Positions 29,915 through 61,595 of a stretch of 64,000 nucleotides of DNA are shown here, piece after piece. Position numbers and translations under genes: made by a program. The first letter of the stretch is position 1, and every line of letters begins with the position of its first letter. Source of the DNA: Myxococcota bacterium (GTDB taxonomy: Bacteria; Myxococcota_A; Polyangia; Polyangiales; Houyiibacteriaceae); contig JAHDCI010000003.1 of the NCBI GenBank assembly GCA_020629955.1, positions 1-64,000 of the forward strand, written 5' to 3'. A model generated the notes under the pieces. The model was given only the letters and a program-made list of their open reading frames with translations. It was not told the DNA's origin and searched no databases.

Positions 29915-30001
29915 AGGTTTGCAATGACTTGATTTGCTCAGATGGCAAATTTTGATGTTTACTTGTTGACCTTTCCTGTCGCTTGGGGTCCACTAGCCAG
30001 C

Positions 30002-40757: not shown

Positions 40758-41834
40758 TTGGCGTTCGCGACGACTCAGGGCACCCTATCGGGCGCAGTGT
40801 CCGGACTGACTCATCGCTCGCGTCGAATCCTCTACGCGGCCATTACCGAATACATCGCGACGGGCGAGCCCGTCGGGTCGCGCCGTATTGCCAAGCGCTA
40901 CGGTATCCAGCTCTCCGCGGCGACGATCCGGAATGTATTGGCAGACCTTGAAGACAGCGGTTTGCTTCGGCAGCCGCATACATCCGCCGGTCGGATTCCG
41001 ACCGACCATGGTTTCCGGGTTTTCGTCGACGCCTTGGTGCGCATGCGCGAAGTCTCCGAGCGAGACCAAAAAGCGATCCTCGACGAGATCGCGGCTCTTA
41101 AGCCAGGCGCGGACCTGCTCCAAGCGACCGGAGAGATTCTCAGCTCCGTCACTGGGGCCGCTGCGGTCGTCGTGGCGCCGCGGCCGGAGGAGGAGAAGCT
41201 TCAACGCCTGCATTTTATGCCGCTCCAGGCGACCACTCTCCTCGCGGTCATGGTGACGACCAGCGGCGTTGTCCAAAACCGCCTTGTCGAACTGAGACGA
41301 CAGACGGATTCCGCCGAGCTCGAGCGTGTGAACAACCTCCTGGCAGACCTTCTTAGCGACCCCATGAGCCTCCGCGAGGTCAGAGAGACGCTTGCGGAAG
41401 AAGCGAGCGAGCAGCGGGATCTTCTGGCGGATTTGACGAGCAACGCGGAAAAGGTGGTCAGCGCAACCCTCGAAGAAGAGAGCCCCGCGCGCGTTCATGT
41501 CGAAGGGCAAGGACGCCTCTTCGATCGCCCCGAGTTCCTCGATCCCGAAAAGATCAAACGCTATCTCAAAGCCCTCGATGACCAGGAGAGGCTCCTTGGG
41601 TTGCTCGACGAGACGCTGATCTCCAAAGGGGTGCGGGTGCTCATTGGCGCGGAGGCCAACCTCGGCGATGTCGACGACGTGAGCGTGATCAGCTCCACTT
41701 ATACGCGCTCGGGTGGTTCGCGGGGAACCCTCGGCGTCATCGGGCCATCGCGTATGGACTACGGAAAGATTGTGCCGCTCGTCGAGTTCATTGCAGGCGC
41801 TGTCTCAAGCGCGCTCGATCAAACCGACGATTGA
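40758..41834 (+). CDS. hrcA: Heat-inducible transcription repressor HrcA
   Basis: AITEYIATGEPVGSRRIAKRYGIQLSAATIRNVLADLEDSGLLRQPHTSAGRIPTDHGFRVFVD. Confidence 0.95.
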   Translation: MAFATTQGTLSGAVSGLTHRSRRILYAAITEYIATGEPVGSRRIAKRYGIQLSAATIRNVLADLEDSGLLRQPHTSAGRIPTDHGFRVFVDALVRMREVSERDQKAILDEIAALKPGADLLQATGEILSSVTGAAAVVVAPRPEEEKLQRLHFMPLQATTLLAVMVTTSGVVQNRLVELRRQTDSAELERVNNLLADLLSDPMSLREVRETLAEEASEQRDLLADLTSNAEKVVSATLEEESPARVHVEGQGRLFDRPEFLDPEKIKRYLKALDDQERLLGLLDETLISKGVRVLIGAEANLGDVDDVSVISSTYTRSGGSRGTLGVIGPSRMDYGKIVPLVEFIAGAVSSALDQTDD

Positions 41835-42406
41835 TCTGTCGCGATCGCGGTTCGAATGGTTTCTCGGAGACTCGGAAGGAGAGTCTTCTCAAACCATGGG
41901 TTGGTCTTAAACCAGCGGACATTCCGAGGCGAGGGGTGCGGCAACACCCAGCGCCTGGGCGCGAAGTCTTTCCAGCGTAGAACGCTCGCGGTGAGCGTCT
42001 TCTCGCGCTCCGGGAGATAACGGCGCTGCGCGTACATACCGATGATCAAGAGAATCGGGTCGCTCTTCAGAGAGTCGAGAAAGCGAGGGTGCCAGAGCGG
42101 TGCGCATTCCGGACGCGGCGGTAGATCGCCTGACTTTCCCGTCCCAGGATAACAAAACCCCATAGGGAGAATTGCGAAGTGTTGCTCGTTGTAGAACTCT
42201 TCGTCGCTTACGCCCAGCCAGTCGCGGAGGCGAACGCCGCTCGGATCGTCCCATGGGATCCCGCTTTCATGCACGCGCCGCCCGGGAGCCTGTCCAATAA
42301 TGACAACTTTCGCATTCGTGCTTCCACGCACGACAGGACGGACGCCATGGGGCAGCGCATTCGCGCAGACCTCGCAACTCCGGATTTCGCTTAGTAGTGA
42401 CTTCAT
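41819..42406 (-). CDS. Uracil-DNA glycosylase-family protein
   Basis: VVIIGQAPGRRVHESGIPWDDPSGVRLRDWLG; ILPMGFCYPG; WVLPHPSPRNVRW. Confidence 0.9.
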   Translation of the reverse strand: MKSLLSEIRSCEVCANALPHGVRPVVRGSTNAKVVIIGQAPGRRVHESGIPWDDPSGVRLRDWLGVSDEEFYNEQHFAILPMGFCYPGTGKSGDLPPRPECAPLWHPRFLDSLKSDPILLIIGMYAQRRYLPEREKTLTASVLRWKDFAPRRWVLPHPSPRNVRWFKTNPWFEKTLLPSLRETIRTAIATDQSSV

Positions 42407-42531
42407 CCCAGGGTTCTCGTGACATATCTCGAGGTGCTTTGAAATGTCCCGGAACCACGACCGTGCCAGTTTGGACGGACCCTCCCAATTCGGCGGCTTG
42501 CGAAGGGAGCAGAACGCGATACGTCGCCGGG

Positions 42532-43560
42532 GTGAATACGAGCTCTTCTAGCCGAGTGGGGGCCGCGCGCGCCCGTGCGAATATTGCGCTGGCCAAATAC
42601 TGGGGTAAGTCGGATATCCCGCTCAATTTGCCGGCGGTCCCAAGTATCTCGCTTACTCTTGATGGGCTGGTTACCGAAACCACCGTGCGATTTGTAGACG
42701 GGCTCGACGCCGACCGGGCGACGCTCGATGGGCGGGACGCTTCCGAAAAAGAGATGGTTCGGATCCGAGAACTTCTCGATCGCGTCCGAGCGAAAGCAAA
42801 GCTTGATCTCCGCGCCGAAGTCGCGAGCGGAAACCGCTTCCCGACGGCGGCAGGACTCGCATCGAGCGCCTCGGGATTCGCTGCGCTCGCGGCCGCGGCG
42901 TCTCATGCTGCAGGACTGGCCCCAAGCGCGAAAGGTCTGAGCGCGATGGCTCGTCAGTCGAGTGCTTCGGCGGCGAGATCCATCTACGGGGGCTTTTCGG
43001 AACTCCCGGCAGGAAAACCAGGAAACGCTCGTCTCGCGGCGAAGCCCCTCTTCGACGCAGCCTATTGGGATGTTCGCATCGTAGTTGCGGTCACGGCGAA
43101 AGGACCGAAGAAGGTTGGTTCCACCGAAGGCATGGAACGCTCGCGAAAGACCTCGCCCCTCTATGAGGCGTGGGTGCAGCAGGCGCCGAAGCTCACCAAG
43201 GTGATTCGCAAAGCATTGCGCGAGAAGAACCTCGACGCCCTTGGCGCGACGATGGAGCAGAGTACATTTGCGTTTCATGCATGTGCGCTCTCCGCCCGTC
43301 CGGGGATTCGATACTGGCAGCCCGCCACGATGTCGGCACTTGGCGCCGTGGAGTCGCTTCGCGAACGAGGAATCTCGGCCTGGGCGACGATGGATGCGGG
43401 CCCTCACGTAAAGGTGCTCTGTCACGCAGCCGACGCACGGAAGGTTCAGCGCGCTCTCGCGGGCGCGGAGGGAGTGCAGTCGACAAAAACGCTCAAGCCG
43501 GGAGCCGGTCTTGAGGTGGGAAGAACGCTCCGCTCACTACAGCCCTTGGAGGGGGAATAA
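42532..43560 (+). CDS. mvaD: Diphosphomevalonate decarboxylase
   Basis: ANIALAKYWGKSDIPLNLPAVPSISLTLD; TAAGLASSASGFAALAAA; SARSIYGGF. Confidence 0.95.
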   Translation: MNTSSSSRVGAARARANIALAKYWGKSDIPLNLPAVPSISLTLDGLVTETTVRFVDGLDADRATLDGRDASEKEMVRIRELLDRVRAKAKLDLRAEVASGNRFPTAAGLASSASGFAALAAAASHAAGLAPSAKGLSAMARQSSASAARSIYGGFSELPAGKPGNARLAAKPLFDAAYWDVRIVVAVTAKGPKKVGSTEGMERSRKTSPLYEAWVQQAPKLTKVIRKALREKNLDALGATMEQSTFAFHACALSARPGIRYWQPATMSALGAVESLRERGISAWATMDAGPHVKVLCHAADARKVQRALAGAEGVQSTKTLKPGAGLEVGRTLRSLQPLEGE

Positions 43561-43564
43561 TAAT

Positions 43565-44524
43565 ATGGGTTTCGGGGAACGCGTCGCGACGGCGCCTGGG
43601 AAGATGATGGTCTGCGGAGAGTATGCGGTGCTTCATCGCGCTCCGTCTGTGGTGGTAGCGGTCGATCGACGGGCTGAGGTTACTCTTGCGCGAAGTGTGC
43701 CCTTGGACCGTGAATCGAGCGGCGTCCGCTTTCCGGAAGCGCTTGCTTCGTTTCGGTGTGGCGAGGAAGTCTTCGGCTCTCCGCCTCCTGGAATGAAGCT
43801 TGGCGTGGATGTTTCATCGCTTCGGCGCGGAGAGCACAAGCTTGGTCTTGGCTCGAGCGCTGCAAGTGCAGCTGCAGCAGCGGGTCTTGCCTGCGCAGCA
43901 AGCGGTAACGCGATAGAAGATCGGATCGCCGATGTCCTGAACGTTGCGATGGAAGGACATCGCCGCGTATCGCCCAGCGGAAGCGGCGCGGATGTCGCGG
44001 CGGCGGTCCTGGGGGGCTTTGTCCGTTTCCAAAGATTGGCGGAGAGTGTCGATGCCCAACCTGCGGACGTCGCGGAGGGAATGTTCTGGTCGGTGATTTG
44101 GACTGGAGAACCCGCGAGCACCCGTGGACTTGTCGCGAAGGTGAATGAGTTCAGGGAACGAGACCCGAGCGGACATGCGCGGATCATGGCGGAGCTCACC
44201 GAGAGCAGCCACCAGTTCTGTCATGCCCTCTCAACTTCCTGTCAGGATACGATCGATGCGATCGCTGCGTATCACGAGGGGATGAAGACCCTCGGTGAGC
44301 TCGCTGGAGCCCCGATTGTTGAGTACAAACTCGATCGGGTCGCCCATCTTGCGGAACGTTTCGGCGGTTCATCGAAGCCATCTGGCGCGGGCGGAGGCGA
44401 CGTGGCGTTAGCGCTCTTTCTTGACGCGGAATCTCGCGATGCGTTCGAAGAATCTTGCGCCACGAAGGATCTCACGCCGGTATCGCTGAAGCTTGGGGAG
44501 CCCGGGGTTCGAATCGAAACCTGA
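43565..44524 (+). CDS. GHMP kinase, probable phosphomevalonate kinase
   Basis: APGKMMVCGEYAVLHRAPSVVVAVDRRAEV; KLGLGSSAASAAAAAG; KPSGAGGGDVALAL. Confidence 0.85.
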   Translation: MGFGERVATAPGKMMVCGEYAVLHRAPSVVVAVDRRAEVTLARSVPLDRESSGVRFPEALASFRCGEEVFGSPPPGMKLGVDVSSLRRGEHKLGLGSSAASAAAAAGLACAASGNAIEDRIADVLNVAMEGHRRVSPSGSGADVAAAVLGGFVRFQRLAESVDAQPADVAEGMFWSVIWTGEPASTRGLVAKVNEFRERDPSGHARIMAELTESSHQFCHALSTSCQDTIDAIAAYHEGMKTLGELAGAPIVEYKLDRVAHLAERFGGSSKPSGAGGGDVALALFLDAESRDAFEESCATKDLTPVSLKLGEPGVRIET

Positions 44525-48029: not shown

Positions 48030-48659
48030 CTAGGTTTTTAGGACACCGCGGAGATTAAAGTCGAGAACCGCCAGTGCGATGCGATCGACGTCCTGATGAA
48101 GGTCCCCGTTCTCGTCCATGATCAGCTGCTCCATGAGCTGTTTGATCGTTCCGAGGATGCAGAAAGCCCCTACCTGGGTGTCGAAGTTGCGCAGGAGGCC
48201 CATCGTCTTCCCTCGGTCGAGTGAGTCTTGAATGTAGGCCAATAAGTCGCTGTAGAACTGCGCTAGGCGCGCGTCGATGTCGGAATCCAGCCCCACCGCT
48301 TCTCGGACAAGAATGCGCGCGAGCGCTCTGTTTTCTGCGACCGTGGTCAGGATCTTTCGAACGATACCGATCAGCTGCATTTCGACCGGCGGCGCGTTCT
48401 CTCCAGTGTCCACGCCGTGAATGCTCGACCGCATTTCTCCGAGAAGGTCTTCGAGCAGTTCCGCAAAAATCGCGTTCTTCGACTCGAAGTAGAGATAGAA
48501 GGTACCTCGGGCGATGCCGGCGGCTTTGATGATATCGCTGACGTGCGTCTGGTGATAACCGCGCTCGGCGAAGACGGACTTCGCGTGCTCCAGAATCCGC
48601 TTTCTTCGGTTCTCGCGTTTCCGGCTCGCGCGGACCGTCCTCCCATCGAGCGCGTTCAT
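48030..48659 (-). CDS. TetR-family transcriptional regulator
   Basis: RKRILEHAKSVFAERGYHQTHVSDIIKAAGIARGTFYLYFESKNAIF. Confidence 0.93.
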   Translation of the reverse strand: MNALDGRTVRASRKRENRRKRILEHAKSVFAERGYHQTHVSDIIKAAGIARGTFYLYFESKNAIFAELLEDLLGEMRSSIHGVDTGENAPPVEMQLIGIVRKILTTVAENRALARILVREAVGLDSDIDARLAQFYSDLLAYIQDSLDRGKTMGLLRNFDTQVGAFCILGTIKQLMEQLIMDENGDLHQDVDRIALAVLDFNLRGVLKT

Positions 48660-49492
48660 TGTCCGTGCTTCTCCGCAAAGTACGCGTCGACCCGACGCGC
48701 GATCGCAGATCGAACTTCTTCAATTTTGGCCGGCAGCTCTTCGTCCGAAACGCCGGCGAAATCGACTGGCTTTTCGTGCCAAAGCGTGACCTCTTGGAAA
48801 GGCCGGATGTGGTAGGAGCTTCTCCGCATGACGTCGTACATCCCGGTGACGGCGGAGGGCACAACCTTCATTCCCAGGTCTCGGGCCACCACGAATAGCC
48901 CCGATTTGAACTCGCCCACGCGGCCGTCGTGTGTGCGTGTTCCCTCTGGAAACGCGAGAATCGATTGTCCCTTGTCGACGGCAGCCGTGATCTGCTTTTT
49001 GATCTTCGGGAGGCGCTCGTTTCGATCCGCGGGAACGCCGATCGTGCCGCGAGATTTCATGTACCAGCCGTAGACCGGATATTTGAAGTGGGTCTCGAGC
49101 TCGACGCCCTGTTTGATGTGTTTCGTGCCCGGGTAGAGCGTGACGAAGTCGAAATGATTGATGTGGTTTTGCGCGAAGAGATACGTCTCGTCGTCACGGA
49201 TATCGGGATGCGAGACCGTGCGCCATTTGGCGAACGTGCACGCCACCATACCGCGGCAAAATAGCCGGCTCACGCCCTCCGCAGCTTCGATTCCCCGTAG
49301 GTGCTGCGCCGCGGCCATGAGCGGCGTCATGGTGCTCATCCAGCTGATGCCGGCGACCCAGCTTGCCGCGCTCAGAGCTTTCTCTTTGACGGTCGGCTCA
49401 TAGTCTCGCCAGCCACCGTGAAGTTTGTGCTCCGTGGATTCGGAGCTTTGCTCCTCGGCTTGATTCGTATCGTTTTGCTGAATCTGAGTCAT
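48656..49492 (-). CDS. 1-acyl-sn-glycerol-3-phosphate acyltransferase (PlsC-like)
   Basis: AQNHINHFDFVTLYP (HX4D), ILAFPEGTRTHDGRVGEFKSG. Confidence 0.92.
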   Translation of the reverse strand: MTQIQQNDTNQAEEQSSESTEHKLHGGWRDYEPTVKEKALSAASWVAGISWMSTMTPLMAAAQHLRGIEAAEGVSRLFCRGMVACTFAKWRTVSHPDIRDDETYLFAQNHINHFDFVTLYPGTKHIKQGVELETHFKYPVYGWYMKSRGTIGVPADRNERLPKIKKQITAAVDKGQSILAFPEGTRTHDGRVGEFKSGLFVVARDLGMKVVPSAVTGMYDVMRRSSYHIRPFQEVTLWHEKPVDFAGVSDEELPAKIEEVRSAIARRVDAYFAEKHGQ

Positions 49493-50433
49493 GCGAAGAT
49501 CTCCAATGCGCCTGGAAGCACTTCCAGGGAATGAATCGTGAGGCGCTCGATTTCGCCGTCGAGCATGACGAGCTCCTCGCGGGGTTCGAGGAATTCGATC
49601 CGGCGGGCGCGTCGTTCGTCGACCTTTTCACAGAGCACGTGACGGCCTTCAAAGACGCGGAAAAGCTCTTTGACGAACTCGCGTTTCTTCATTTCGCCCG
49701 CGCGGATGAGATCGACCTTGCCGTCGGTGGGATCGGCATGCGGGGCGATGCGCAAAGAGCCGCCGGTGTATTGGCTATTGGAAAAGCACAGGAAGGAAGA
49801 CGGCACGCGTTCGGCGGGGCCATCGTCCACACGAATGGGATAGGCCTCGTGTTTGAGACGAGCGAGTTCGATCAGCGCGGACATCATATAGCCAGCTTCC
49901 CCGACCCGCTTAAATCGCCGGTTCGTGAGGTCGCCCGCCTTCGTGACGAATCCGATCGTCAGAAGATTCATATAGTGCCGCACGCCTTCTGAATGCGTGA
50001 CGCGGACGACGTCGACACGACGTGTACGGCCCCGCTTAAGCGCGGCGACAGCGCTCTCCTGATCGGTGATATCGAAATCGCGCAAAAACGAGTTGCCCGT
50101 TCCCAGAGGCAAGATGCCGAGGCGCGGCACATCATCGACATCCCGCGGTCCATTGCTCGCGGCAGGGAAGAGTCCGTTCAGTACTTCGTAGGAGGTCCCG
50201 TCCCCGCCAACCGAAAGGAACTGCCTCGTTCCGCTCGCGTAGGCGCGCGCCGCGAGCTCGCTCGCGTGTCCTGGACGCTCGGTATACGTAACGTCGAGCT
50301 CGGAGAGCTGCGAAAGCGCGTCGAGCGTTTCGGTTGCACGTTCTTGGCAACGTCCGCCGCCTGCGGCGCCGTTCACGATCACCTTGGTGCGAACCAAGGG
50401 CATCTCGGAGCTAGGCTGGGGAGAGAGATTCAC
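49489..50433 (-). CDS. Diacylglycerol/lipid kinase (YegS/BmrU-like)
   Basis: VIVNGAAGGGR; LSVGGDGTSYEVLNGL; LGILPLGTGNSFLRDF. Confidence 0.92.
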   Translation of the reverse strand: MNLSPQPSSEMPLVRTKVIVNGAAGGGRCQERATETLDALSQLSELDVTYTERPGHASELAARAYASGTRQFLSVGGDGTSYEVLNGLFPAASNGPRDVDDVPRLGILPLGTGNSFLRDFDITDQESAVAALKRGRTRRVDVVRVTHSEGVRHYMNLLTIGFVTKAGDLTNRRFKRVGEAGYMMSALIELARLKHEAYPIRVDDGPAERVPSSFLCFSNSQYTGGSLRIAPHADPTDGKVDLIRAGEMKKREFVKELFRVFEGRHVLCEKVDERRARRIEFLEPREELVMLDGEIERLTIHSLEVLPGALEIFA

Positions 50434-52187
50434 GCGCGGACCTCGACGCGAGAAGTGCGAACTTCTTGCACGTTCTGTAGGGCGCTCTTCTCAAACCGGG
50501 CGCGGAGCGCTTCGGCGAGCGGCCGGCGCTTGAGTTTCATCGACGCGGTGCGCGGGAACTCTTCGGTCTCAAAGAGCACGCCGGCGATGCGCTTGTAGTC
50601 CGCGAGGCTGCGGTTTCGTTTGGCGATCTCGGTTAGCAGATCCGCTTCCGAGCCTTCCTTCTTCAGTCGCGCAACGAGTACGAGCTGCTCTTCGTCGAGC
50701 GCGATGCCCGGCCAGAGAAAGCCAGAGGCACACACCGCGAACTCTTCGCAATCGAGCCCTTCGAACGCGGTCTCGATGTCTTCCGGGTAGACGTTCTTTC
50801 CGCCCGCCGTCACGATCATATTCTTGCTGCGGCCGACAAGATGAAGCTGCTGGCTCGGGTCGAGATAGCCGAGGTCTCCGGTGCGGAGCCAGCCGTCTTG
50901 AAGAACTTCCGCCGTCTGTTCGGGGTCGCCCTCGTATCCGGCAAAAACGGTTCGGCTCTTTACCCAGACTTCGCCGACTCCTTCCGCGTCCGCGTTCCGG
51001 ATTTCGATTTCAACGCCTTCGAGCGGGCGACCGACCGAGTCGGGGCGGAAGGGCTTGAGGTCATTGACGGTCAAGACCGTTCCGGCTTCGGTGAGGCCGT
51101 ACCCAATGACGACGGGAATCCCGAGATCGTAAAAGCGCTGTGCGCGCGCAGGATCAACAAAGGCGCCGCCAATGTACACACGCTTTAGGTCTGGCCCCAG
51201 CGCGTTGTGTACCGGGCGCAGAAGACGCTTGCTGAGCCACTTGCGAGGCCGGTCGAGCGTGAGGCTTGCATTGAGCGACTGCGCGACGTCGAGGAAGGCC
51301 TCCCGAATCTTGCCGGCGTCTTCGATCTTTTCATCGAGGTTCCGCTCGAAGGCTTCGAGGATCAGCGGAACGATGGCCATATGCGTGATGCCTTCGTTTT
51401 GCAGCGCGTGACGAAGGAACTCAGGACGAAGCGTGCGCTGATGCACGACCGTCGCGCCGCAGGCGAATGCGCCGAGGAAACCACACATGAAGTCGATTGC
51501 GTGGTTCGTCGGCAAGACCGAGAAGTAGCGATGGCCAACCCGGAACGGGTAGAGCGAGATCAGCGTACGATACTGTTCGAGGTAGTTGTCGTGGGTGAGG
51601 ATGCAGCCCTTCGGATCCCCGCCTGTGCCGGAGCTATAAACGAGCGTCGCTTGGTCGCTACGCTTGCGCGGAACGAAAGTCGCCCGGGCGCGCTCTTCCG
51701 CGCATGCGATGGAATCGAAATCGACGTGCACGCCGTCTTCAGGGAGCGGGTCTCGCTCGGAGACTTCGCTGACCAGAACTCTCTCGAAACCGAGAGCGCC
51801 CTCGCGCGTCGCCTTGAGGTCGCGCCATTCGGCGTACTCCGTCACCAGTACCTTGGGCTTCGCGTGCCGGAGCAAGATCTCGTGCTCTTCGCCGCTGAGT
51901 TTGTAGTCGAGCGGCACGACAACGGCCCCGCGATAGAACGCGGCATACGCCGCGGTGAGCCAGCGCCACTGGTTGCTCATCACGATGGCGACGCGGTCGC
52001 CCGCGCCGATTCCGAGGTCTTCGAAGTGCTTTGCGATGCGCTCACCGCGGCGCTTTGTCTCGAGATAGGTCAGCTCTTCGCTCACGCGCTTTCGGCGCAG
52101 CTCAACGAGCGCGGTCTCCGTTTTGAACTGAACAAAAGCGTCGCGGAGAAGCTCCCCAAGCGATTGGTAGCGGTCGGGCGGGATCAC
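50430..52187 (-). CDS. AMP-dependent synthetase/ligase (long-chain fatty acid type)
   Basis: TLVYSSGTGGDPKGCILTHDN; YGLTEAG; GWLRTGDLGYLD; MIVTAGGKNVYPEDIE. Confidence 0.95.
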   Translation of the reverse strand: MIPPDRYQSLGELLRDAFVQFKTETALVELRRKRVSEELTYLETKRRGERIAKHFEDLGIGAGDRVAIVMSNQWRWLTAAYAAFYRGAVVVPLDYKLSGEEHEILLRHAKPKVLVTEYAEWRDLKATREGALGFERVLVSEVSERDPLPEDGVHVDFDSIACAEERARATFVPRKRSDQATLVYSSGTGGDPKGCILTHDNYLEQYRTLISLYPFRVGHRYFSVLPTNHAIDFMCGFLGAFACGATVVHQRTLRPEFLRHALQNEGITHMAIVPLILEAFERNLDEKIEDAGKIREAFLDVAQSLNASLTLDRPRKWLSKRLLRPVHNALGPDLKRVYIGGAFVDPARAQRFYDLGIPVVIGYGLTEAGTVLTVNDLKPFRPDSVGRPLEGVEIEIRNADAEGVGEVWVKSRTVFAGYEGDPEQTAEVLQDGWLRTGDLGYLDPSQQLHLVGRSKNMIVTAGGKNVYPEDIETAFEGLDCEEFAVCASGFLWPGIALDEEQLVLVARLKKEGSEADLLTEIAKRNRSLADYKRIAGVLFETEEFPRTASMKLKRRPLAEALRARFEKSALQNVQEVRTSRVEVRA

Positions 52188-52423
52188 AGCCGTACCTCGA
52201 TGACTTCCGCGAGCTGATCGAAGGTGGTCACGCCCTGAAGCTCGTAGTCTGGGATCTCGACCTCAAGCTCGTCTTCGAGATCCGTCATGAGCTCCATGGC
52301 CTGCATGGAGTCGATGCCGAGCCGGTCGAAAAAGTCGTCCGAAGATTCGAGGCCTTGGGCCTTCTCGCCGAAGCGCTTGGTGGCGAGTTCGATGAGCTTA
52401 GAGATGAGCTGCTGTCGGTTCAT
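52184..52423 (-). CDS. Acyl carrier protein
   Basis: DDFFDRLGIDSMQAMELMTDLEDELEVEIPDYEL (Ser in DSM). Confidence 0.93.
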   Translation of the reverse strand: MNRQQLISKLIELATKRFGEKAQGLESSDDFFDRLGIDSMQAMELMTDLEDELEVEIPDYELQGVTTFDQLAEVIEVRL

Positions 52424-52462
52424 GGTGTTCTTGGGTACGCAGGTGCGTGGAATCGAGTGGAG

Positions 52463-53539
52463 TTAGGGGAGGTAAGGGCGGACGCTCTCGTCATTGACGA
52501 ACTTCTCGAGGGCGCGCTGCACCGTCGGGCTTCCGAGCATGGAGACAAAGAGGTCTTTTTCGCGTGCGAGTTCCTCCACCGGGAGGGGCTTCGTGAATGC
52601 CTTTGCGCGCGCTGTTGTTTCCGGATCGAAACGGGAGGCTTGTTCGGCAACGCTACGAGCCGCGTCGAGCGCTCGTCCGCGGGCGACCAGCTGAGAGACC
52701 AGGCCGACCTCATGAGCCCTTGAGGCGCGCATGCTGCGGCCGGTCAAAAGAAGGTCGCGGACCAGTGCGTTTCCGAGGTCGCGCTTCAGACGCGGGATGC
52801 CGCCAAAGCCCGGAACAATGCCGAGACGAAGCTCAGGGAAAGCGAAGCGGGCGGACTTGTCGGCGATAATGACATCGCTCGTCAGCGCGAGCTCGAAACC
52901 GCCGCCAAAGACAAAACCGTGCACCGCAGAGATCGTGGTGATCGGGGCGGTATCGAACGTGTCGAAGACCGCGTGAATGCGGTCGATGAAGCCGCGTACT
53001 TCGACGGCCGTCTCGACCTTGCCGCGAAGGCCGCCGGTCTCGGTCGCTTTTTCGACGAGGCCCGCGTGAAGTTCGCGAAGGTCAGCGCCCGCACAGAAAC
53101 CGCGCTCGACGGAGGAGTAAAAGATCATCGCGCGTGCGCCGCCTGCGCCCCGCCGGATCAGTGTCGCAAGCAGCTCGAGTTCGCTGAGCGCCGTGGTACC
53201 GATTTCATTGCAGGGCTCACGGCAGAGCTCGACTTCAAGGTGCGCGTTGCCGGTTTTGTTGGTGACCAGCCCCCAGCGCATCGCCTCGCCTTCGAAGTTC
53301 AGCGGAGGAAGCTCGCGGCTTACGATCGGTTTCGGGCCAGGCCGAACATCGACACCGAAGAGGTGCGTTGGAAGGGCGCTCTGCGCTCGGCGAATCAGTT
53401 CTTCGCCAAGCAGACGCGCAGGCCAGAGCCCGAGGCGAGTCCGAAGCGGCACCACATTTTCTGCGGCGAAACGTGGCGGAACGTTGGCGTTCGACGTCTT
53501 TGCTCCGCTTGAGGCGGTCGTGGGTTCGGCGCTCATCAT
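52463..53539 (-). CDS. Enoyl-CoA hydratase/isomerase-family protein
   Basis: RGFCAGADLREL; AVHGFVFGGGFELALTSDVIIAD; PELRLGIVPGFGGIPRLKR. Confidence 0.92.
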   Translation of the reverse strand: MMSAEPTTASSGAKTSNANVPPRFAAENVVPLRTRLGLWPARLLGEELIRRAQSALPTHLFGVDVRPGPKPIVSRELPPLNFEGEAMRWGLVTNKTGNAHLEVELCREPCNEIGTTALSELELLATLIRRGAGGARAMIFYSSVERGFCAGADLRELHAGLVEKATETGGLRGKVETAVEVRGFIDRIHAVFDTFDTAPITTISAVHGFVFGGGFELALTSDVIIADKSARFAFPELRLGIVPGFGGIPRLKRDLGNALVRDLLLTGRSMRASRAHEVGLVSQLVARGRALDAARSVAEQASRFDPETTARAKAFTKPLPVEELAREKDLFVSMLGSPTVQRALEKFVNDESVRPYLP

Positions 53540-55263
53540 CAGACCTGCGCTCTCACGGGCTGGCTCGGACTTGCCGGCGTTTGTTCTGCCGCGGCGCGCT
53601 CTTCCACGCGGCCCACGAGTGCTTTCACGGCAGGAGGCAAGGGCGGGAGGTGCTGCCACGGGTCTCCGTGTGCGCCGAGCTCGGGTGCGAAGGGAAACTC
53701 TGGATGATGCTCGCGCACATGCTCCACCAGCGTCATGCCCATCTCGCCCATACGGATGAGGTTCTGGTAGACGCACGCGTCGATACCTTCGCGGATACGT
53801 TCCCCATCGCGCACCAAAATCTGCAGCACGTTAAAGAGGCTATCCTCGAGGTTCGGATCATCGACTTCGAGGGCGAGCTCAGGCGTCTTCCGATCGGCCA
53901 TCAGGTTGCGGATACGTTCGTCCATCGTGACGCCCGACGAGATCACCCCGCCGGACATCGTCATGACGCACGCGTGGTACCGGCTCGAGACCATATAGGT
54001 GGCCTGGCGCATCGCGCTGACCATCGCGTACATATCGAACTCGTCTGAGACGATGATCGGGATCGCGGGGACTTCGAGCCCTTGGGCTTCAATGGCGGCG
54101 CGCAGTTTCGGCTCCAGGGCCTCGCACGCCAATCGGTCGAGCTGCTCGCTGCCGTAGAGGACGGGCGTCACGGCCGTCTCTTTCATGAGGCGCGCGGTCG
54201 CTTGGGCGAAGGCTTCGAGGTAGGCGTCCTGCTTGTCGTCGATCTCCGCGCTCTCGGCGTGAAAGTAAACCGAGCCGTAGTGGCTCTCGCTGTAGAGATC
54301 CGAGAACGAGTGCACCGCGGCACGCGGCACGTTCGGCTTTACGGGCCACCAGAAGGGGTTGATCGGGCAGAGCGCCAAAATCGGAGTCTCGCCGTCCCAG
54401 CCGCGTTCGATCAGGATATTTCGTCCGACCTCGGGGCCTTCTGGATCGAAGGTCCAAGCGGTATCCGTGCCCGAACTCGATGCCACCCCGAGATCGTCGA
54501 GGATGCCCTTGCTCGCTTCGTTGCGCGCGATGATCAACGCATCTTGGCAGTATCGGCGAACGAGGTCGCGGAGCGGCTCGTCCATCTTGCCGGCTTCTCC
54601 GCCGTAACCGACGGCGATCTTTCCTTCTGCGCTCGCAAGACCGAGCGAGCCCACCATCATCGTCGAGAGCGCGTTCGCGAACTTGCTCTTGAACATCGAA
54701 CCTTCGCAGGCGACGACGGCGTGTTGCTCGTGAACTGTTTCAAAGAGCGTCTTCGGAAAGACCTTCGGAAGATGAAGCTGGCGGACGGTGCGGAAGTAGC
54801 CCCGAGTGAGCTCTTCGTCGATTGTAAAAATCGAGAGCTCAAGGTCCTCGTCTCCGAAGAGATGACGGAACTGCCGAATCATCTCTTCGACGCGAACATC
54901 AGCGCCCGTATTTCGCGTACCGCTGTAGCCTGCGAGAAGAACTTTAAGCGGCTTACCAGGGCTCCACTGATCGCCGGAGTCGAGCGCATAGCGAGAAGCG
55001 GCGAGTTCGATAAAGCCGCTCATCGCGACCATGAGCGCGCGGTCCGCGTCGACGTAGCCTTCAATCTTTTCCTTCGAAGCTTTGAAGAGGTCGGAGAAGA
55101 AGGTTCTCACGTTGTCGGCATCACGCTGCTCCACATGATCTTTGAGCTCGGTGACGACGTTCTTCATCTCCGCCCACGACTTCGGAAGCACGACCTGCCC
55201 CTGCTCGCTGACCTGCGCCGCGCTCGGAGTGGGCTCCTTCTTTTTGGGACGCCAGATCTTCAC
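53539..55263 (-). CDS. Polysaccharide pyruvyl transferase-family protein
   Basis: LLAGYSGTRNTGADVRVEEMIRQF; SSRYHACVMTMSGG. Confidence 0.85.
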   Translation of the reverse strand: MKIWRPKKKEPTPSAAQVSEQGQVVLPKSWAEMKNVVTELKDHVEQRDADNVRTFFSDLFKASKEKIEGYVDADRALMVAMSGFIELAASRYALDSGDQWSPGKPLKVLLAGYSGTRNTGADVRVEEMIRQFRHLFGDEDLELSIFTIDEELTRGYFRTVRQLHLPKVFPKTLFETVHEQHAVVACEGSMFKSKFANALSTMMVGSLGLASAEGKIAVGYGGEAGKMDEPLRDLVRRYCQDALIIARNEASKGILDDLGVASSSGTDTAWTFDPEGPEVGRNILIERGWDGETPILALCPINPFWWPVKPNVPRAAVHSFSDLYSESHYGSVYFHAESAEIDDKQDAYLEAFAQATARLMKETAVTPVLYGSEQLDRLACEALEPKLRAAIEAQGLEVPAIPIIVSDEFDMYAMVSAMRQATYMVSSRYHACVMTMSGGVISSGVTMDERIRNLMADRKTPELALEVDDPNLEDSLFNVLQILVRDGERIREGIDACVYQNLIRMGEMGMTLVEHVREHHPEFPFAPELGAHGDPWQHLPPLPPAVKALVGRVEERAAAEQTPASPSQPVRAQV

Positions 55264-56411
55264 GCGCGCGCCTCCGGGCTCGCCTTCGTCGGCGCAGGGG
55301 GAAGCGGCGCGTAGGGGTAGCGGTAGCCGCTGTTCTTGCACCATGCCGTATAGGCCGGGCCGTACTCGAGGAACGAGGTTGGCGCGACGCCGATTTCGTT
55401 CACTGCGCGATCGTTCTTAAAGACCGTGTCGAAGCAGATGTACGGAAGGAAGACTTTGAAGAGCGAGCCGATATAGGTCACGGCGTTTCGCTGCGGCATC
55501 GACGCGATCGCATTAAACATCATCTCGGTCGCACCGTAGAGACGCGGCGTAAACTTCGGCGGCCGGCGGCCATGTTCGCGCATCTGCGCAGCGATCTGCT
55601 CCGCACGCGGAGACTTTTCACCCGTCGCCAGGTGGTAGATCTCGTGGTCGGTTTTGTCCTTCTTGTGAAGCTCGAAGATCGCCTTCCCGACCCAGTCGGC
55701 GTTGACGATATCGACGCGCGCCTCCGGGCGGATGGGGAAGAGCGGGAGCTCGAAGATGGTGTTAAACGCCTGCACCATTTCGAACTGCGTGGTCTCCGGG
55801 AAACGCGAATCACCGAGCACGGTCGAGGGCCGGAAGATCGTCTTCGGGACGTTCGGAAGCAGCTCGAAGACCATATGCTCGCACATCTTCTTCGTGCGGG
55901 CGTAGGGGTCATAATCGCTGCGCGTCCATTCGATGGAGGCATCCTCGTCGAGCGTCTCCGACTGGCGCTTGCCAGCCACGGCCGTCGTCGAGACAAAGGA
56001 GAACCGGCGGAGGCCGTTTTTGGCTTCGGTTGCCTGCGCAAGCTTCAACATCGCGAGCGTGCCGCGGAGGTTGTGATTGAGGCAGGATTTTTCGCTCTTT
56101 CGGTTCAGCGACGCGGCGATATGGAGGATTGAATCCGTATTGTCGACGACGCTCTTATACGCATCGTCGCTCATGCCGAGCTTCGGCGCGGAGAGGTCGC
56201 CGGTGACCACGTTCACCCGGTCGATATGACGGTAGAAGACTTCCGGCGTCTGGTGGATCTGTAGTGCCTTCCAGAGCTTCTCGCGGCCCTCCTGATCGTT
56301 CTTCGCGCGGGTCAGAACGGAGACCTTCGCGTTGGTCGTACGCAGGTAATGGTCGAGAACGTAGGAGCCGAGAAATCCAGTCGCGCCGGTGATGAAGATA
56401 TTTTCGCTCAT
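55260..56411 (-). CDS. SDR thioester/fatty acyl reductase-like (NAD_binding_4)
   Basis: IFITGATGFLGSYVLDHYLR; FVSTTAVAG; YARTKKMCEHMV. Confidence 0.9.
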   Translation of the reverse strand: MSENIFITGATGFLGSYVLDHYLRTTNAKVSVLTRAKNDQEGREKLWKALQIHQTPEVFYRHIDRVNVVTGDLSAPKLGMSDDAYKSVVDNTDSILHIAASLNRKSEKSCLNHNLRGTLAMLKLAQATEAKNGLRRFSFVSTTAVAGKRQSETLDEDASIEWTRSDYDPYARTKKMCEHMVFELLPNVPKTIFRPSTVLGDSRFPETTQFEMVQAFNTIFELPLFPIRPEARVDIVNADWVGKAIFELHKKDKTDHEIYHLATGEKSPRAEQIAAQMREHGRRPPKFTPRLYGATEMMFNAIASMPQRNAVTYIGSLFKVFLPYICFDTVFKNDRAVNEIGVAPTSFLEYGPAYTAWCKNSGYRYPYAPLPPAPTKASPEARA

Positions 56412-58054
56412 GATGCACGCACCATTGTCTCGTTCGCGGGTGTTGGTTGTCCTGCGATCACGAATTCACCCGTGCGACGGGCTTTCTCTTCGCCGAGACG
56501 CGGAAGAGGTGGATCGTCCGGCACCTTTTCGTTGCGCATGAGCGGAAGGCTCCACTTCTCGAGCCCGGGCACCTGGGTATTCATCCAGTAGTCCCGCCAG
56601 CAGATATCGTGGATATCGAATCCGAAGCGTTCGCGATCTTCCTCGGCGAGCATCTGCGTATCGATGACGAGATTGTCGGTGAGGAAGGTGTAGTTGTAGT
56701 CGTGAATGAACGGCCGGTACTGACGAAGCATGCCGTCGACGCGGTCGAGAATTCGGTCCGTGGAACGTGCTTCTTTCGAGACTTCGTCGAGCGCTTTTTG
56801 AATGCGCTTACCGTCGATCTTCTCGAAGAGCGAAGGCGAGAGATAGCGCTCGAGCTTGTGGCTACGCAGGAATGAGCGCGTCGCCTTGGCGGCCTTCTGC
56901 ATGCGGCGGAAGCCGAGCACTTCGGTCTTCGTTGGGTCCGCGCAGTGTGAATCAAGGTAGGCGGTGAAGTTCTTTTCGACAGAGTTCCCGGTTCGCTTGT
57001 GCATGCGGCGGATCGCGATGCCGCAGAGATCCACGGCGCGCTCAAACGTGAACGGGTTCTGATGGCCCGAAGCGCACTGATAAACGTGCTGTGCCGTATC
57101 TTCGAGCGCGCGGCCCGTGACCATCACCATGGTGCGCGCGACGGTGTCGACGGGCACGATATCGAAGTTATTCGTGGCCTTCGCGGGGAAGCGCTGGAAG
57201 CTCGTCGAGAGGAGCCAGACGATCGGCCCTGAGGTATTGATGCCTTCGTTCCAGCCTTGGAAAGGATAGTTCCGGGCGCATTCCACAATCGCGGGGCGAT
57301 ACGTCGTCGTGACGACGTCCGTGCGCAGGTCGATCAGATGCTCGGAGAGCCCCTTCGAGTACGTGTAGATATTCGGCCAGCCGAGCGCTTGGGCGCGCGC
57401 CATGACCAAATCGATGCGCTCCTTCTTCGTTTCGAGCTTCGCGATTTCCGCTTCGCAGATCCGAAGTTCTTCGCTCGGATCGAAGCGGGTGCCGTTCGGG
57501 GAAATCCCCGGCGTGACGACCTCCGCGATTTCGCCGTTGCGCATGCCGCCCACGAATGTTGTCGAGACGTGCACGTAGCGGTGCTTCGGGGAAAGCGCCG
57601 CAAGGTCGGCGACATGTGCTGCGCCGTGAATATTCGCGTCGATCGACCACTGTGGATCGGGCTCGAAGTCTGTGAGACCGGCGAAGTGAACCACGGCGTC
57701 AACATTCGCCATGAGCTCCTTGGCTTCGCTCTCCGAGAAACCGCAGAGCGGCTCGGTAAGCGCCGCCTTCTTGACGGTGACTTTGTCGGCGATCAGCGCG
57801 CGCAGCTCCTGCCCAAGCTTATCCCGGAGCGGGCGGAACGCCGGCGAGGCTTCGAAGATCCGCGTGAAACGTTCGTCTGCGCTCTCGCCCTTCTTGCCGC
57901 GAATAAGCAACGTGATGTGTCCAACCTCCGGGAGGAAGTCGAGGACCATCGCGAGCCAGACCTTTCCGAGGAAACCGGTCGTGCCGGTGACGACAAGGTG
58001 CTTGCCAGCGTAGGTTTCGCGAAGTGGCTTCATGGGAGTGGCGGGGTGATTCAT
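56408..58054 (-). CDS. Fatty acyl-CoA reductase-like SDR
   Basis: LVVTGTTGFLGKVWLAMVL; YVHVSTTFVGG; YTYSKGLSEHLI; C-terminal sterile-like region. Start could be as far upstream as 58120. Confidence 0.92.
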   Translation of the reverse strand: MNHPATPMKPLRETYAGKHLVVTGTTGFLGKVWLAMVLDFLPEVGHITLLIRGKKGESADERFTRIFEASPAFRPLRDKLGQELRALIADKVTVKKAALTEPLCGFSESEAKELMANVDAVVHFAGLTDFEPDPQWSIDANIHGAAHVADLAALSPKHRYVHVSTTFVGGMRNGEIAEVVTPGISPNGTRFDPSEELRICEAEIAKLETKKERIDLVMARAQALGWPNIYTYSKGLSEHLIDLRTDVVTTTYRPAIVECARNYPFQGWNEGINTSGPIVWLLSTSFQRFPAKATNNFDIVPVDTVARTMVMVTGRALEDTAQHVYQCASGHQNPFTFERAVDLCGIAIRRMHKRTGNSVEKNFTAYLDSHCADPTKTEVLGFRRMQKAAKATRSFLRSHKLERYLSPSLFEKIDGKRIQKALDEVSKEARSTDRILDRVDGMLRQYRPFIHDYNYTFLTDNLVIDTQMLAEEDRERFGFDIHDICWRDYWMNTQVPGLEKWSLPLMRNEKVPDDPPLPRLGEEKARRTGEFVIAGQPTPANETMVRAS

Positions 58055-58109
58055 GGAAAGCTCAGGGGTGGAGGAGGAGGTGTTCACGTCGGTGCGCTGC
58101 ATGGACGTC

Positions 58110-58769
58110 TTACTTTTCAACGACGGGCCAGGAGTGGTCCTTCGCGAGTCGGCGAAGCTGGCGATCGGGGTTGACCGCGCACGGCTGACCCAGTGCGCTC
58201 ATGAGCAAGCTATCCGCCGCGCTCGCGCCGTACGCCCAGGACTGCGAAAGATCGATCGCGTGCTCGCTCGCGAACTCACGTGCCCACTGTCCAGCAACGT
58301 TGCCGCCGATAACGGGCTCTTCGAGTTTGCCCGTTGCTTTGTTCTTGCGAAGCTCGAGACGGTTGCAGATGAGGTCGTCCGCGCCGAGATGCTTCGCGAG
58401 AGGAGCCACGACGACGTCGACGCTGTCGCTGATGAGGATGATGCGACGGCCCTGCTTGCGGGCCTCCTTGAGGAGGCGCTCGCCAACCTCGAGGACTTCA
58501 TCCTTCATATACGTCTCGAAATACTCTTCGCCGAGCAGCACCAAGCGGTCCTCGGACATTCCGCGGACGCCCATCCAGGTCATCTTTGTGGCGGTCGTGC
58601 CAAACTGCATTTCCCCAGCGATTCGGAAGGGGGTTGCGAGCGCAATATTGCCGAGGCGGGCGACGCGCTCTCCGAGACCTTGGGCGTGGGTGGCGATCCA
58701 AGCGGCGGCGCTCAGAGCGCTACGCTCGGTCAGGGTGCCTTCGACGCGGAAAAATGCTGCTGTGCTCAT
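58110..58769 (-). CDS. HAD-IB-like protein with degenerate catalytic motifs
   Basis: AAFFRVEGTLTERS (motif I), LISDS (motif II), YGASAADSLLMSALGQPCAVNPDRQLRRLA (motif IV). Confidence 0.88.
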   Translation of the reverse strand: MSTAAFFRVEGTLTERSALSAAAWIATHAQGLGERVARLGNIALATPFRIAGEMQFGTTATKMTWMGVRGMSEDRLVLLGEEYFETYMKDEVLEVGERLLKEARKQGRRIILISDSVDVVVAPLAKHLGADDLICNRLELRKNKATGKLEEPVIGGNVAGQWAREFASEHAIDLSQSWAYGASAADSLLMSALGQPCAVNPDRQLRRLAKDHSWPVVEK

Positions 58770-58802: not shown

Positions 58803-58870
58803 AGACTGACGTGTCAGTCAAGATTGGGAAGGCCGTGTCCTTAGCAAAACTAGACTGGCGTGTCAGTCTA
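58803..58870. promoter_or_regulatory. Two TetR-type operator palindromes
   Basis: GACTGAC-GT-GTCAGTC (58804-58819) and TAGACTGGC-GT-GTCAGTCTA (58851-58870) upstream of the HAD gene. Confidence 0.75.
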
Positions 58871-59072
58871 AAGTTTGTGACTAAAGTCACATCTCCGTTC
58901 TGGCCGGTTTTCGCTAAGTTCGCGGCGTGCAAACGAAAATTGGAGTTGCGTGTCCGCGAAGCGCCGCCCCGCAGGTGTCAGCACATTGCGCTGAGACCGA
59001 AAAATCCCGATGGATCTGAGATCGAGCGACGAAGACCGTTGCGTCTCTCGGTCGCCTCGTTACCCTGCCTCG

Positions 59073-61595
59073 ATGCGAAAGCTACTCTTCACGCGGGGGG
59101 CCCCTGGGGCTGGCAAGAGCACGGCGATTCGTGCGCTCGGGCTCGAGAACTTTCTGCTGAGCGCCGACGTTCTGAGGACGGTCTTCGCGGGGCCAACGAT
59201 CTCCGAGCTTGGAACGATGGGCGTGCCCCAAGATCACGACGCGCGCGTCTGGCCTTTTTTCTTTGCTCGCCTTCGCGAGCGAATGGAGCGCGGGGAGACA
59301 CTGGTCCTCGACGCGACCCATACGCAGCTTCGCCATATCACGCCCTATCTTCCCCTCGCCTCACGACATCAATACGAGGTTGCCTGCATCGATGCATCGG
59401 ATGTTCCCCTTGAGACGTGTCTTTCTCAAAATCTCGCTCGCGACCCGGTCGAGCAGGTTCCGCCGCAAGTGGTTGAGCGGATGTGGAATGAGTGTCGCGC
59501 GGTCGAGCTTCCCGGGGAGATCACGCGTATTCCTCATGAGGACCACGATGCGATCCGGGCCTTTCTCGACGTGCCCGTCGCGGACCTCAGTACTTACGCG
59601 GAGGTCCTTACGATCGGCGATCTTCAAGGATGCGCTTGGCCGCTCCTCAACCCAAGCGGGCTGATTCCCGGGGGCGTGCTCCGCGATGACACCTTCTACG
59701 TTTTCGTGGGGGACCTCTGCGATCGCGGTCCCGAGAACGCAGAAGTGCTCGAGTTTGCGCTCTCCGTTCATCAACGCGAGAACGTCGTTTTCCTCTGGGG
59801 CAATCACGAGGATCACTTGGTTCGATTTGCCAACGGAGAAGAGCCCGTCTCGACAGAGTTCGAAGAACGAACCCTGCCTCAGCTGCATGCGGCAGCGATT
59901 ACTCCAGAGATGATCCGCCCGCTCTGCTCGAGTTTTCGAGAGGTTTTTCCGTACTCTCGTGGCGAGCAGAAGGTTCTTGTTTCTCATGCCGGCATGCCGA
60001 TCGTCCCGGCGCAGATGTGGAAGATCAGCGGTCATCAATGGGCGCGCGGCGCGGGGCGGTACAGTGCGCCGGTGGACGAACATTTCTCGGCTCAAGCGGA
60101 TGCGGGCTGGGTGCAGATCCACGGACATCGCAACGTAAAGCTCCTCCCCTCGGAGGCATCGCCGCGCTCGTATAACCTCGAAGGCAAGGTTGAGTTTGGA
60201 GGCCACCTGCGCGCGGTCCGGCATCGCGATGGATTCGAAACCGTCGACATCGTGAATACGCGGTATCGCCCGATTCGCGTCTTTGCCGCCGCAGGAAAAC
60301 TCCGTCGAGAAAAGAGCTATCCCGATTGGGTCGACGGCGAACTCGACGTTTCCCCGAGCGCGCAGGAAGAGCTTGTTCCGAAACTTCTATCGAGTGAATC
60401 GGTCTACGAACGTCAGTCGAGTTCGCGCCCGAATATCAGCGCGTTTAATTTCACGCGCGATGTCTTCTTTCAGTCTGCGTGGGATGAGATTTCCACGCAG
60501 GCGAGGGGGCTCTTCATCGATATGGAGACCAAGCGAATCGCCGCGCGCTCCTACGATAAGTTCTTTAATCTCGGCGAGCGTCCTGAGACCGCGCTCTCCG
60601 TCTTGGCGGAGACGATTGAGTATCCAGCGGAGGTTTACCTGAAGGAGAACGGTTATCTCGGGATCGTTGGCTATGACGAGAAACGGCGGGATCTTTTGGT
60701 GGCGAGTAAGTCGAGCATCGAAAGCGACTTCGCCGGCTGGCTGCGTGAGCGGATCGAGGAACGTTTGAGCGAGGGGCAGCGTGAAGCGCTCATTCGCTAC
60801 TTGCGTGACGCGCATGCGAGCCTGGTGTTTGAAGTCATCGAACCAGAGCGAGACCCGCATATCATCGAATACGAGGCGCCTCGCCTCATCCTGCTCGACA
60901 TCATTCGGCGCGAATATACGTTCGAGCGAGCTTCCTTTAAGCGGCTTCAGAACTTTGGAGAACGTTTTGGATTTGAGGTGAAAGAAAAGGCGGCGACGCT
61001 AAAGAACGCGGACGCGCTTCGCGGGTTCATCGAAGCGACAAAGCGCGAGGACTATCAATACCGAGGGCGCTTTATCGAAGGCTTTGTCATCGAAGATCAG
61101 ACCGGACCGAAGGTAAAGCTAAAGCTTCACTACTACGCTTACTGGAAGCGGCTCCGCTCTCTCCAGGAGCGGGTCCGAAACATTCGCGGCACGAAGAAAT
61201 CGCTCGGGCGAGATATCTCCGAACCGAGCATTGCAGCGTTCCATGCGTGGCTGGTGGAGCAAGATGACGAGACGCTTCGCTTGCCGATCACCGAGGTTCG
61301 GAAGCGCTACCTCGCGGGGCATTCGTCCCCGATCGGAGAACAGCGCGCGCGACAGGCGGAGGACCGGAAGCGTGATGGGTTTCGCCAAGCGCTGGATGGA
61401 CTTCAGCGTTCCATCGAGGCGGGTGAAACGATCCGCTCCGCGACGGCGAATCAGCTCCTTGAACGTGCGCTCGAAACCGACGCGCTCATGGCACTTTTGC
61501 GCGAGCATTCCCTCCGGAACGCGATCGTGATGGCGGCCGAAGATGGGGAAAACCGGCGCCATGCGGCACAAGCGCTGGGCGTCGATATCGACTGA
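59073..61595 (+). CDS. RNA repair enzyme: polynucleotide kinase - metallophosphatase - Trl1/Rnl1-type RNA ligase
   Basis: Kinase P-loop GAPGAGKST; phosphatase GDLQG/GDLCDRGP/GNHED; ligase ARGLFIDMETKRIAARSYDKFFNLGE and nucleotidyl motif KENGYLGIV. Confidence 0.88.
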   Translation: MRKLLFTRGAPGAGKSTAIRALGLENFLLSADVLRTVFAGPTISELGTMGVPQDHDARVWPFFFARLRERMERGETLVLDATHTQLRHITPYLPLASRHQYEVACIDASDVPLETCLSQNLARDPVEQVPPQVVERMWNECRAVELPGEITRIPHEDHDAIRAFLDVPVADLSTYAEVLTIGDLQGCAWPLLNPSGLIPGGVLRDDTFYVFVGDLCDRGPENAEVLEFALSVHQRENVVFLWGNHEDHLVRFANGEEPVSTEFEERTLPQLHAAAITPEMIRPLCSSFREVFPYSRGEQKVLVSHAGMPIVPAQMWKISGHQWARGAGRYSAPVDEHFSAQADAGWVQIHGHRNVKLLPSEASPRSYNLEGKVEFGGHLRAVRHRDGFETVDIVNTRYRPIRVFAAAGKLRREKSYPDWVDGELDVSPSAQEELVPKLLSSESVYERQSSSRPNISAFNFTRDVFFQSAWDEISTQARGLFIDMETKRIAARSYDKFFNLGERPETALSVLAETIEYPAEVYLKENGYLGIVGYDEKRRDLLVASKSSIESDFAGWLRERIEERLSEGQREALIRYLRDAHASLVFEVIEPERDPHIIEYEAPRLILLDIIRREYTFERASFKRLQNFGERFGFEVKEKAATLKNADALRGFIEATKREDYQYRGRFIEGFVIEDQTGPKVKLKLHYYAYWKRLRSLQERVRNIRGTKKSLGRDISEPSIAAFHAWLVEQDDETLRLPITEVRKRYLAGHSSPIGEQRARQAEDRKRDGFRQALDGLQRSIEAGETIRSATANQLLERALETDALMALLREHSLRNAIVMAAEDGENRRHAAQALGVDID

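Follow-up and report, generated by a model that had tools for sequence, protein, structure and literature searches.

A ten-gene operon occupies the minus strand of the window (the whole 64,000-nucleotide stretch analysed, contig C317, from an assembly of 5.6 Mb in 355 contigs that is 82% complete), running from position 58,769 to 48,030. It is transcribed in the order HAD, FAR, SDR, PPT, ECH, ACP, acyl-AMP ligase, lipid kinase, PlsC and TetR (Table 1). The preliminary description had named the same families, and for all ten genes the Pfam and NCBIfam profiles agree with it, for PPT weakly, every open reading frame lying where it had been placed. Successive genes overlap by 11, 4, 4 and 1 nt from HAD to ECH and then, beyond the ECH/ACP gap, by 4 nt at each of the four remaining junctions; the overlaps of 1–11 nt were thus correctly described, whereas the gap measures 39 nt and not 40 nt. 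PPT starts with a GTG codon at 55,263, in a 4-nt overlap with the stop of SDR.

Table 1 Genes and predicted operators of the operon (window coordinates).
Feature	Position	Strand	Details
HAD-IB-fold pseudo-phosphatase (HAD)	58110..58769	-	PF12710/TIGR01490; motif I RVEGT vs DxDGT; model pLDDT 88.4, phosphoserine-phosphatase-like
Fatty acyl reductase (FAR)	56408..58120	-	NAD_binding_4 and weak Sterile domain; YxxxK conserved
Second reductase, thioester-reductase (R-domain) type SDR	55260..56411	-	NAD_binding_4; TIGR01746 1.2e-40, below its cut-off; YxxxK conserved
Pyruvyltransferase-superfamily protein (PPT)	53539..55263	-	PF04230/CsaB-like, weak; R247, R428, H430, R450; GT-B fold, pLDDT 88.7
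Crotonase/enoyl-CoA hydratase-like protein (ECH)	52463..53539	-	both catalytic Glu present, E216, E236
Acyl carrier protein (ACP)	52184..52423	-	PP-binding; attachment Ser39
AMP-forming acyl ligase	50430..52187	-	AMP-binding; catalytic residues conserved
YegS/DAGK-type lipid kinase	49489..50433	-	TIGR00147 above cut-off; GGDGT intact
PlsC-type acyltransferase	48656..49492	-	HX4D intact
TetR regulator, FadR(Bacillus)-like, last operon gene	48030..48659	-	NCBIfam best match Bacillus-type FadR, below cut-off
Proximal TetR-type operator (predicted)	58804..58819	.	GACTGACACGTCAGTC; near-perfect palindrome
Distal TetR-type operator (predicted)	58853..58868	.	GACTGACACGCCAGTC; 1 mismatch from proximal site

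Divergent from the operon, at 59,010–61,595 (+), lies a gene for an 861-aa Pnkp-like RNA repair enzyme with AAA_33 kinase, calcineurin-type phosphatase and T4 RNA ligase domains. Further away, just past hrcA (40,758–41,834), are the mevalonate pathway genes for a diphosphomevalonate decarboxylase and a mevalonate/phosphomevalonate kinase-like protein (42,397–44,524, +), and at 29,942–31,921 (+) an OmpA-type protein related to the outer membrane exchange protein TraB is encoded, with a 99-nt tandem repeat at 31,219–31,458.

The gene order HAD-FAR-SDR-PPT-(AAL2)-ECH-ACP-AAL-kinase-PlsC-(TetR) recurs across Myxococcota, cultured Nannocystis among them, and in a small number of Acidobacteriota. 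Among related loci with enough contig, SDR was recovered in 65 of 72, FAR in 57 of 61, HAD in 54 of 59, ECH in 51 of 58, ACP in 46 of 58, the ligase in 44 of 52, the kinase in 38 of 48 and PlsC in 30 of 46; TetR excepted, recovery per gene ranges from 65 to 93%. The flanks of the operon in these loci contain no further conserved gene family, and the clusters left over are mostly antisense frames. Of 38 near genomes, 22 contain a PPT relative, as do 25 of 189 genomes spread over the window's phylum and 5 of 199 genomes sampled from the phylum to which an acidobacterial carrier belongs; the operon was consequently rejected as a general explanation of acidobacterial ether lipids. Scanning of 84,980 species gave 294 PPT relatives, the best 80 of which belong to Myxococcota and Acidobacteriota, except for a few from MAGs labelled otherwise that are possibly misbinned; Nannocystis exedens, N. 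pusilla, N. poenicansa, N. bainbridge and Paraliomyxa miuraensis are among these best 80. The nearest relatives of the window operon come from Polyangia-type Myxococcota (a Sandaracinus sp. MAG, a Polyangiaceae MAG and others). A dedicated lipid pathway had been proposed for these genes at the outset, to be given up if the set were not conserved as a unit; the search for the set failed to refute the proposal, and the recurrence of the order in two phyla with high per-gene recovery speaks for a dedicated, co-regulated pathway kept as a unit. The idea that unrelated lipid genes are neighbours here by chance, which has nothing in its favour beyond the families being individually common, is already refuted by the order kept in two phyla together with the paired operator, and its probability is negligible.

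The two predicted operators lie 35 and 84 nt upstream of the HAD start, and a genome-wide scan of the window's assembly gave no other strong or near-perfect site, for which reason a regulon wider than the operon was rejected. The feature expected of autoregulation, a palindrome at the promoter paired with a regulator, is present in the window operon in the form of this predicted operator. Of 60 related loci, all 22 in which TetR was seen have the operator consensus TAGACTGACATGTCAGTCTA upstream of HAD, 31 have neither the site nor TetR, and the remaining 7 have the site and no visible TetR, several of those contigs ending early (Fisher p = 1e-10 for the operator-TetR pairing). Since the palindrome accompanies TetR in 22 of 22 loci and both are missing in 31, the operon is probably self-regulated. 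Given that the best match of this regulator is FadR, below the cut-off, an acyl-CoA is a reasonable guess for the ligand: TetR would repress the operon, and the repression would probably be released by an acyl-CoA.

The HAD protein cannot be an ordinary phosphatase; the loss of its catalytic residues, like the operators, went unnoticed in the preliminary description. Its predicted model matches phosphoserine phosphatases (TM about 0.7–0.83), as befits the HAD-IB fold, and the catalytic DxD pair of HAD-IB phosphatases is lacking (R8, E10). Arg stands at position 8, the site of the nucleophile Asp in this fold, in 62 of 62 aligned relatives, and Glu replaces the second Asp, at position 10, in 61 of the 62; lost as well are the Lys of motif III and the first Asp of motif IV. 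ElbB homologues aligned beside the operon HADs keep all catalytic residues (DVDGT, K, DSxxD). At the acidobacterial loci L123–L143, FAR carries at its N-terminus a fused, truncated HAD in which the RVEG motif recurs. From these observations we infer, as the simplest reading, that HAD acts as a non-catalytic partner subunit of FAR; the invariant replacement of the nucleophile, together with the fusion, would make it a clear instance of an enzyme converted into a partner subunit.

For every other enzyme of the operon, alignment shows the presumed catalytic residues to be intact. Conserved in the aligned relatives are Y252 and K256 of FAR, Y170 and K174 of SDR, E216 and E236 of ECH, S39 of ACP, the GGDGT motif of the kinase, H110 and D115 of PlsC and the catalytic residues of the ligase; their roles we take from general knowledge of the families. 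Many related operons have an 11th gene encoding a second acyl-AMP ligase (AAL2), which in most of them directly follows PPT. In the window's family the operon lacks AAL2; one member encodes it elsewhere, and a search of the window's 82% complete assembly at E 1e-60 gave no match. At two loci, PPT and AAL2 share one open frame (L116, 8947–12129; L122, 1221–4187), possibly through a fusion or a lost stop; this was set aside as weak, since the linkers look non-coding.

The PPT of the window scores 24.1 bits against PF04230, just under the cut-off of 25.3, and several of its relatives match TIGR03609 (CsaB) over the full length with E down to 3e-20, all below the equivalog cut-off. Residues R247, R428, H430 and R450 are invariant in 44 aligned sequences and fall on the columns of CsaB R148, R306, H308 and K328, a match made through alignment with more canonical relatives from the phylum and through shared motifs, not with the CsaB sequence itself. 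These CsaB residues matter for PEP binding, and the K328R variant is still active (PMC10435577). The PEP-binding Arg and Arg-x-His are thus retained in PPT, and the Lys is replaced by the invariant R450, a swap that CsaB tolerates. Searched by sequence, the PDB gave no real match to PPT. Foldseek with the predicted model placed UDP-GlcNAc 2-epimerases, which are UDP-sugar GT-B enzymes, and not Pvg1p, at the top of the PDB matches. These matches would suit a glycosyltransferase-like GT-B enzyme making a glycosylated alkyl or acyl lipid, a reading that we consider improbable in view of the full-length TIGR03609 matches of several relatives and the kept PEP-binding positions. Somewhat less improbable, though still unlikely, is that PPT caps the vicinal diol of a glycerol or sugar lipid to give an anionic pyruvate-ketal lipid, with SDR, ECH and AAL2 merely tailoring the acyl chain: known pyruvyltransferases do form ketals (PMC10435577), and the PEP residues are conserved, but the unit includes no glycosyltransferase, and neither the R-domain SDR nor the position of AAL2 right after PPT would be explained.

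The presence of the ligase, ACP, FAR, kinase and PlsC, along with the parallel to the elb genes of Myxococcus xanthus, makes a dedicated alkyl (ether-type) phospholipid, formed by an elb-related pathway, the most economical reading of the operon product, and we put it forward tentatively, at a little under an even chance. In such a pathway, the ligase and ACP would load a fatty acid as acyl-ACP (step 1), and FAR, partnered by the dead HAD subunit, would reduce it to a fatty alcohol (step 2); finally, the kinase would phosphorylate and PlsC acylate an O-alkylglycerol (step 7). These three steps are fairly likely. FAR, the ligase, ACP and PlsC would be enough for acyl-to-alcohol chemistry, and the product might accordingly be a fatty alcohol or a wax-ester/storage lipid with no glycerol ether, PlsC esterifying the FAR product while ECH and the second ligase modify the chain. 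The unit has no wax-ester synthase, and the conserved PPT and lipid kinase would be left without explanation, which makes this product distinctly unlikely.

For the ether-type phospholipid, a hypothesis regarding steps 3 to 6 may be formulated that gives every gene a job: the glycerol backbone would be derived from PEP, in a route independent of AGPS, ElbD and Ger that leads from a fatty alcohol and PEP through an O-alkyl enolpyruvate to a 2-O-alkylglycerol. Since a ketal cannot form on a mono-alcohol, PPT, on joining the fatty alcohol to PEP (step 3), could leave an enolpyruvyl ether. AAL2, being encoded directly after PPT, could activate the new enolpyruvyl carboxylate, as would the ligase where AAL2 is missing (step 4). 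ECH would then hydrate the enol double bond (step 5), crotonases adding water to α,β-unsaturated thioesters such as the proposed intermediate, and SDR would reduce the thioester to give the O-alkylglycerol (step 6). To the best of our knowledge, the enol-ether route has no precedent, and the lack of AAL2 in the operon of the window's family is its main soft spot; the sugar diols used by known PPTs, the PF04230 score just under the cut-off and the GT-B sugar enzymes among the best folds of PPT also count against the ether-type reading. On the whole we regard the route as unlikely, albeit one that, if true, would be a new way of building the glycerolipid backbone. Bacterial ether-lipid synthesis carries geochemical weight through the brGDGT thermometers, and the enzyme for the sn-2 ether bonds is unsettled; an operon conserved in cultured Nannocystis is a direct, testable ether-lipid candidate.

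Several known systems may be compared with the operon. Its PPT shares the superfamily (PF04230) and the PEP-binding positions with the ketal-pyruvyltransferases CsaB and Pvg1p, but has an N-terminal extension, insertions and new conserved motifs (CPINPFWWPVKP and HYxSVYFH) and is found in a lipid, not a cell-wall, setting. The MXAN_1676-1674 (AGPS) operon of M. xanthus likewise combines a FAR1-like reductase, an acyltransferase and an SDR (PMC9131029), whereas no AGPS-type gene occurs in the window operon or is conserved beside the operon. The anaerobic Ger/PlsA-R enzymes are bacterial ether-lipid makers too (PMC11150832), but they employ an ester-reducing enzyme from a family with no member in the window operon.

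The comparison with the M. xanthus elbA-E genes (VEPE/AEPE/TG-1, BGC0000871), suggested in the preliminary description, stands at the level of parts: a FAR1-like reductase, an AMP-ligase, an ACP, a PlsC-type acyltransferase and a HAD homologue (34–38% identity) adjoining them are found in both. In M. xanthus, elbB encodes the HAD, elbD a FAR-ACS-ACP-AT fusion, and elbA and elbE NAD-epimerases; the ACS and ACP activities of ElbD are known, and loss of elbD strongly lowers ether lipids (PMC9131029). The comparison fails for SDR, which is not ElbE-like, since ElbE is an Epimerase-family protein of at most weak similarity and another family tops the matches of SDR. FAR, ligase, ACP and PlsC are four separate genes here and one fused protein in ElbD, whose homologues in other genomes of the phylum each span a single open frame of about 1,420–2,260 aa, with NAD_binding_4, AMP-binding, PP-binding and acyltransferase domains confirmed. 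The operon FARs form a clade separate from the ElbD FARs (support 0.96 in the tree), and the operon HAD has RxE in place of the DxD that ElbB keeps. PPT, the R-type SDR, the crotonase, the lipid kinase and AAL2, the last often present, have no elb counterpart, and TetR is a further addition. ElbC was rejected as a counterpart of PPT because it is a Lar_N protein, and no such gene lies in the operon or is conserved beside it. The identity of ElbC (loci L145, L148 and L152), listed as of unknown function in PMC9131029, as a lactate racemase-like protein is itself puzzling in a lipid cluster.

The two systems also tend to occupy different genomes. ElbD-sized frames occur in at least 49 and the operon in 25 of the 189 genomes of the phylum, and among the matches listed only one genome (G062) has both; that is, ElbD was listed for 1 of 25 genomes with the operon and at least 48 of 164 without it (Fisher p = 0.006, a value that ignores kinship and draws on few families). 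No FAR-bearing ElbD was found in the five Nannocystaceae genomes tested, all of which have the operon, and the VEPE cluster is reported as not conserved in Nannocystis, Polyangium and Sorangium and absent from Sandaracinus (PMC12224551). In the acidobacterial genomes G211–G216, ElbD-like proteins with no FAR (an AAL-ACP-PlsC span of about 850–980 aa) coexist with the operon. No description of the ten-gene set was found in the open-access papers searched. With three elb features missing, namely the fused ElbD, the intact ElbB motifs and ElbC, the operon is, by its gene content, a related but distinct variant, an unfused sister of elb and not elb itself; it looks like a conserved, regulated and apparently undescribed relative of the elb genes.
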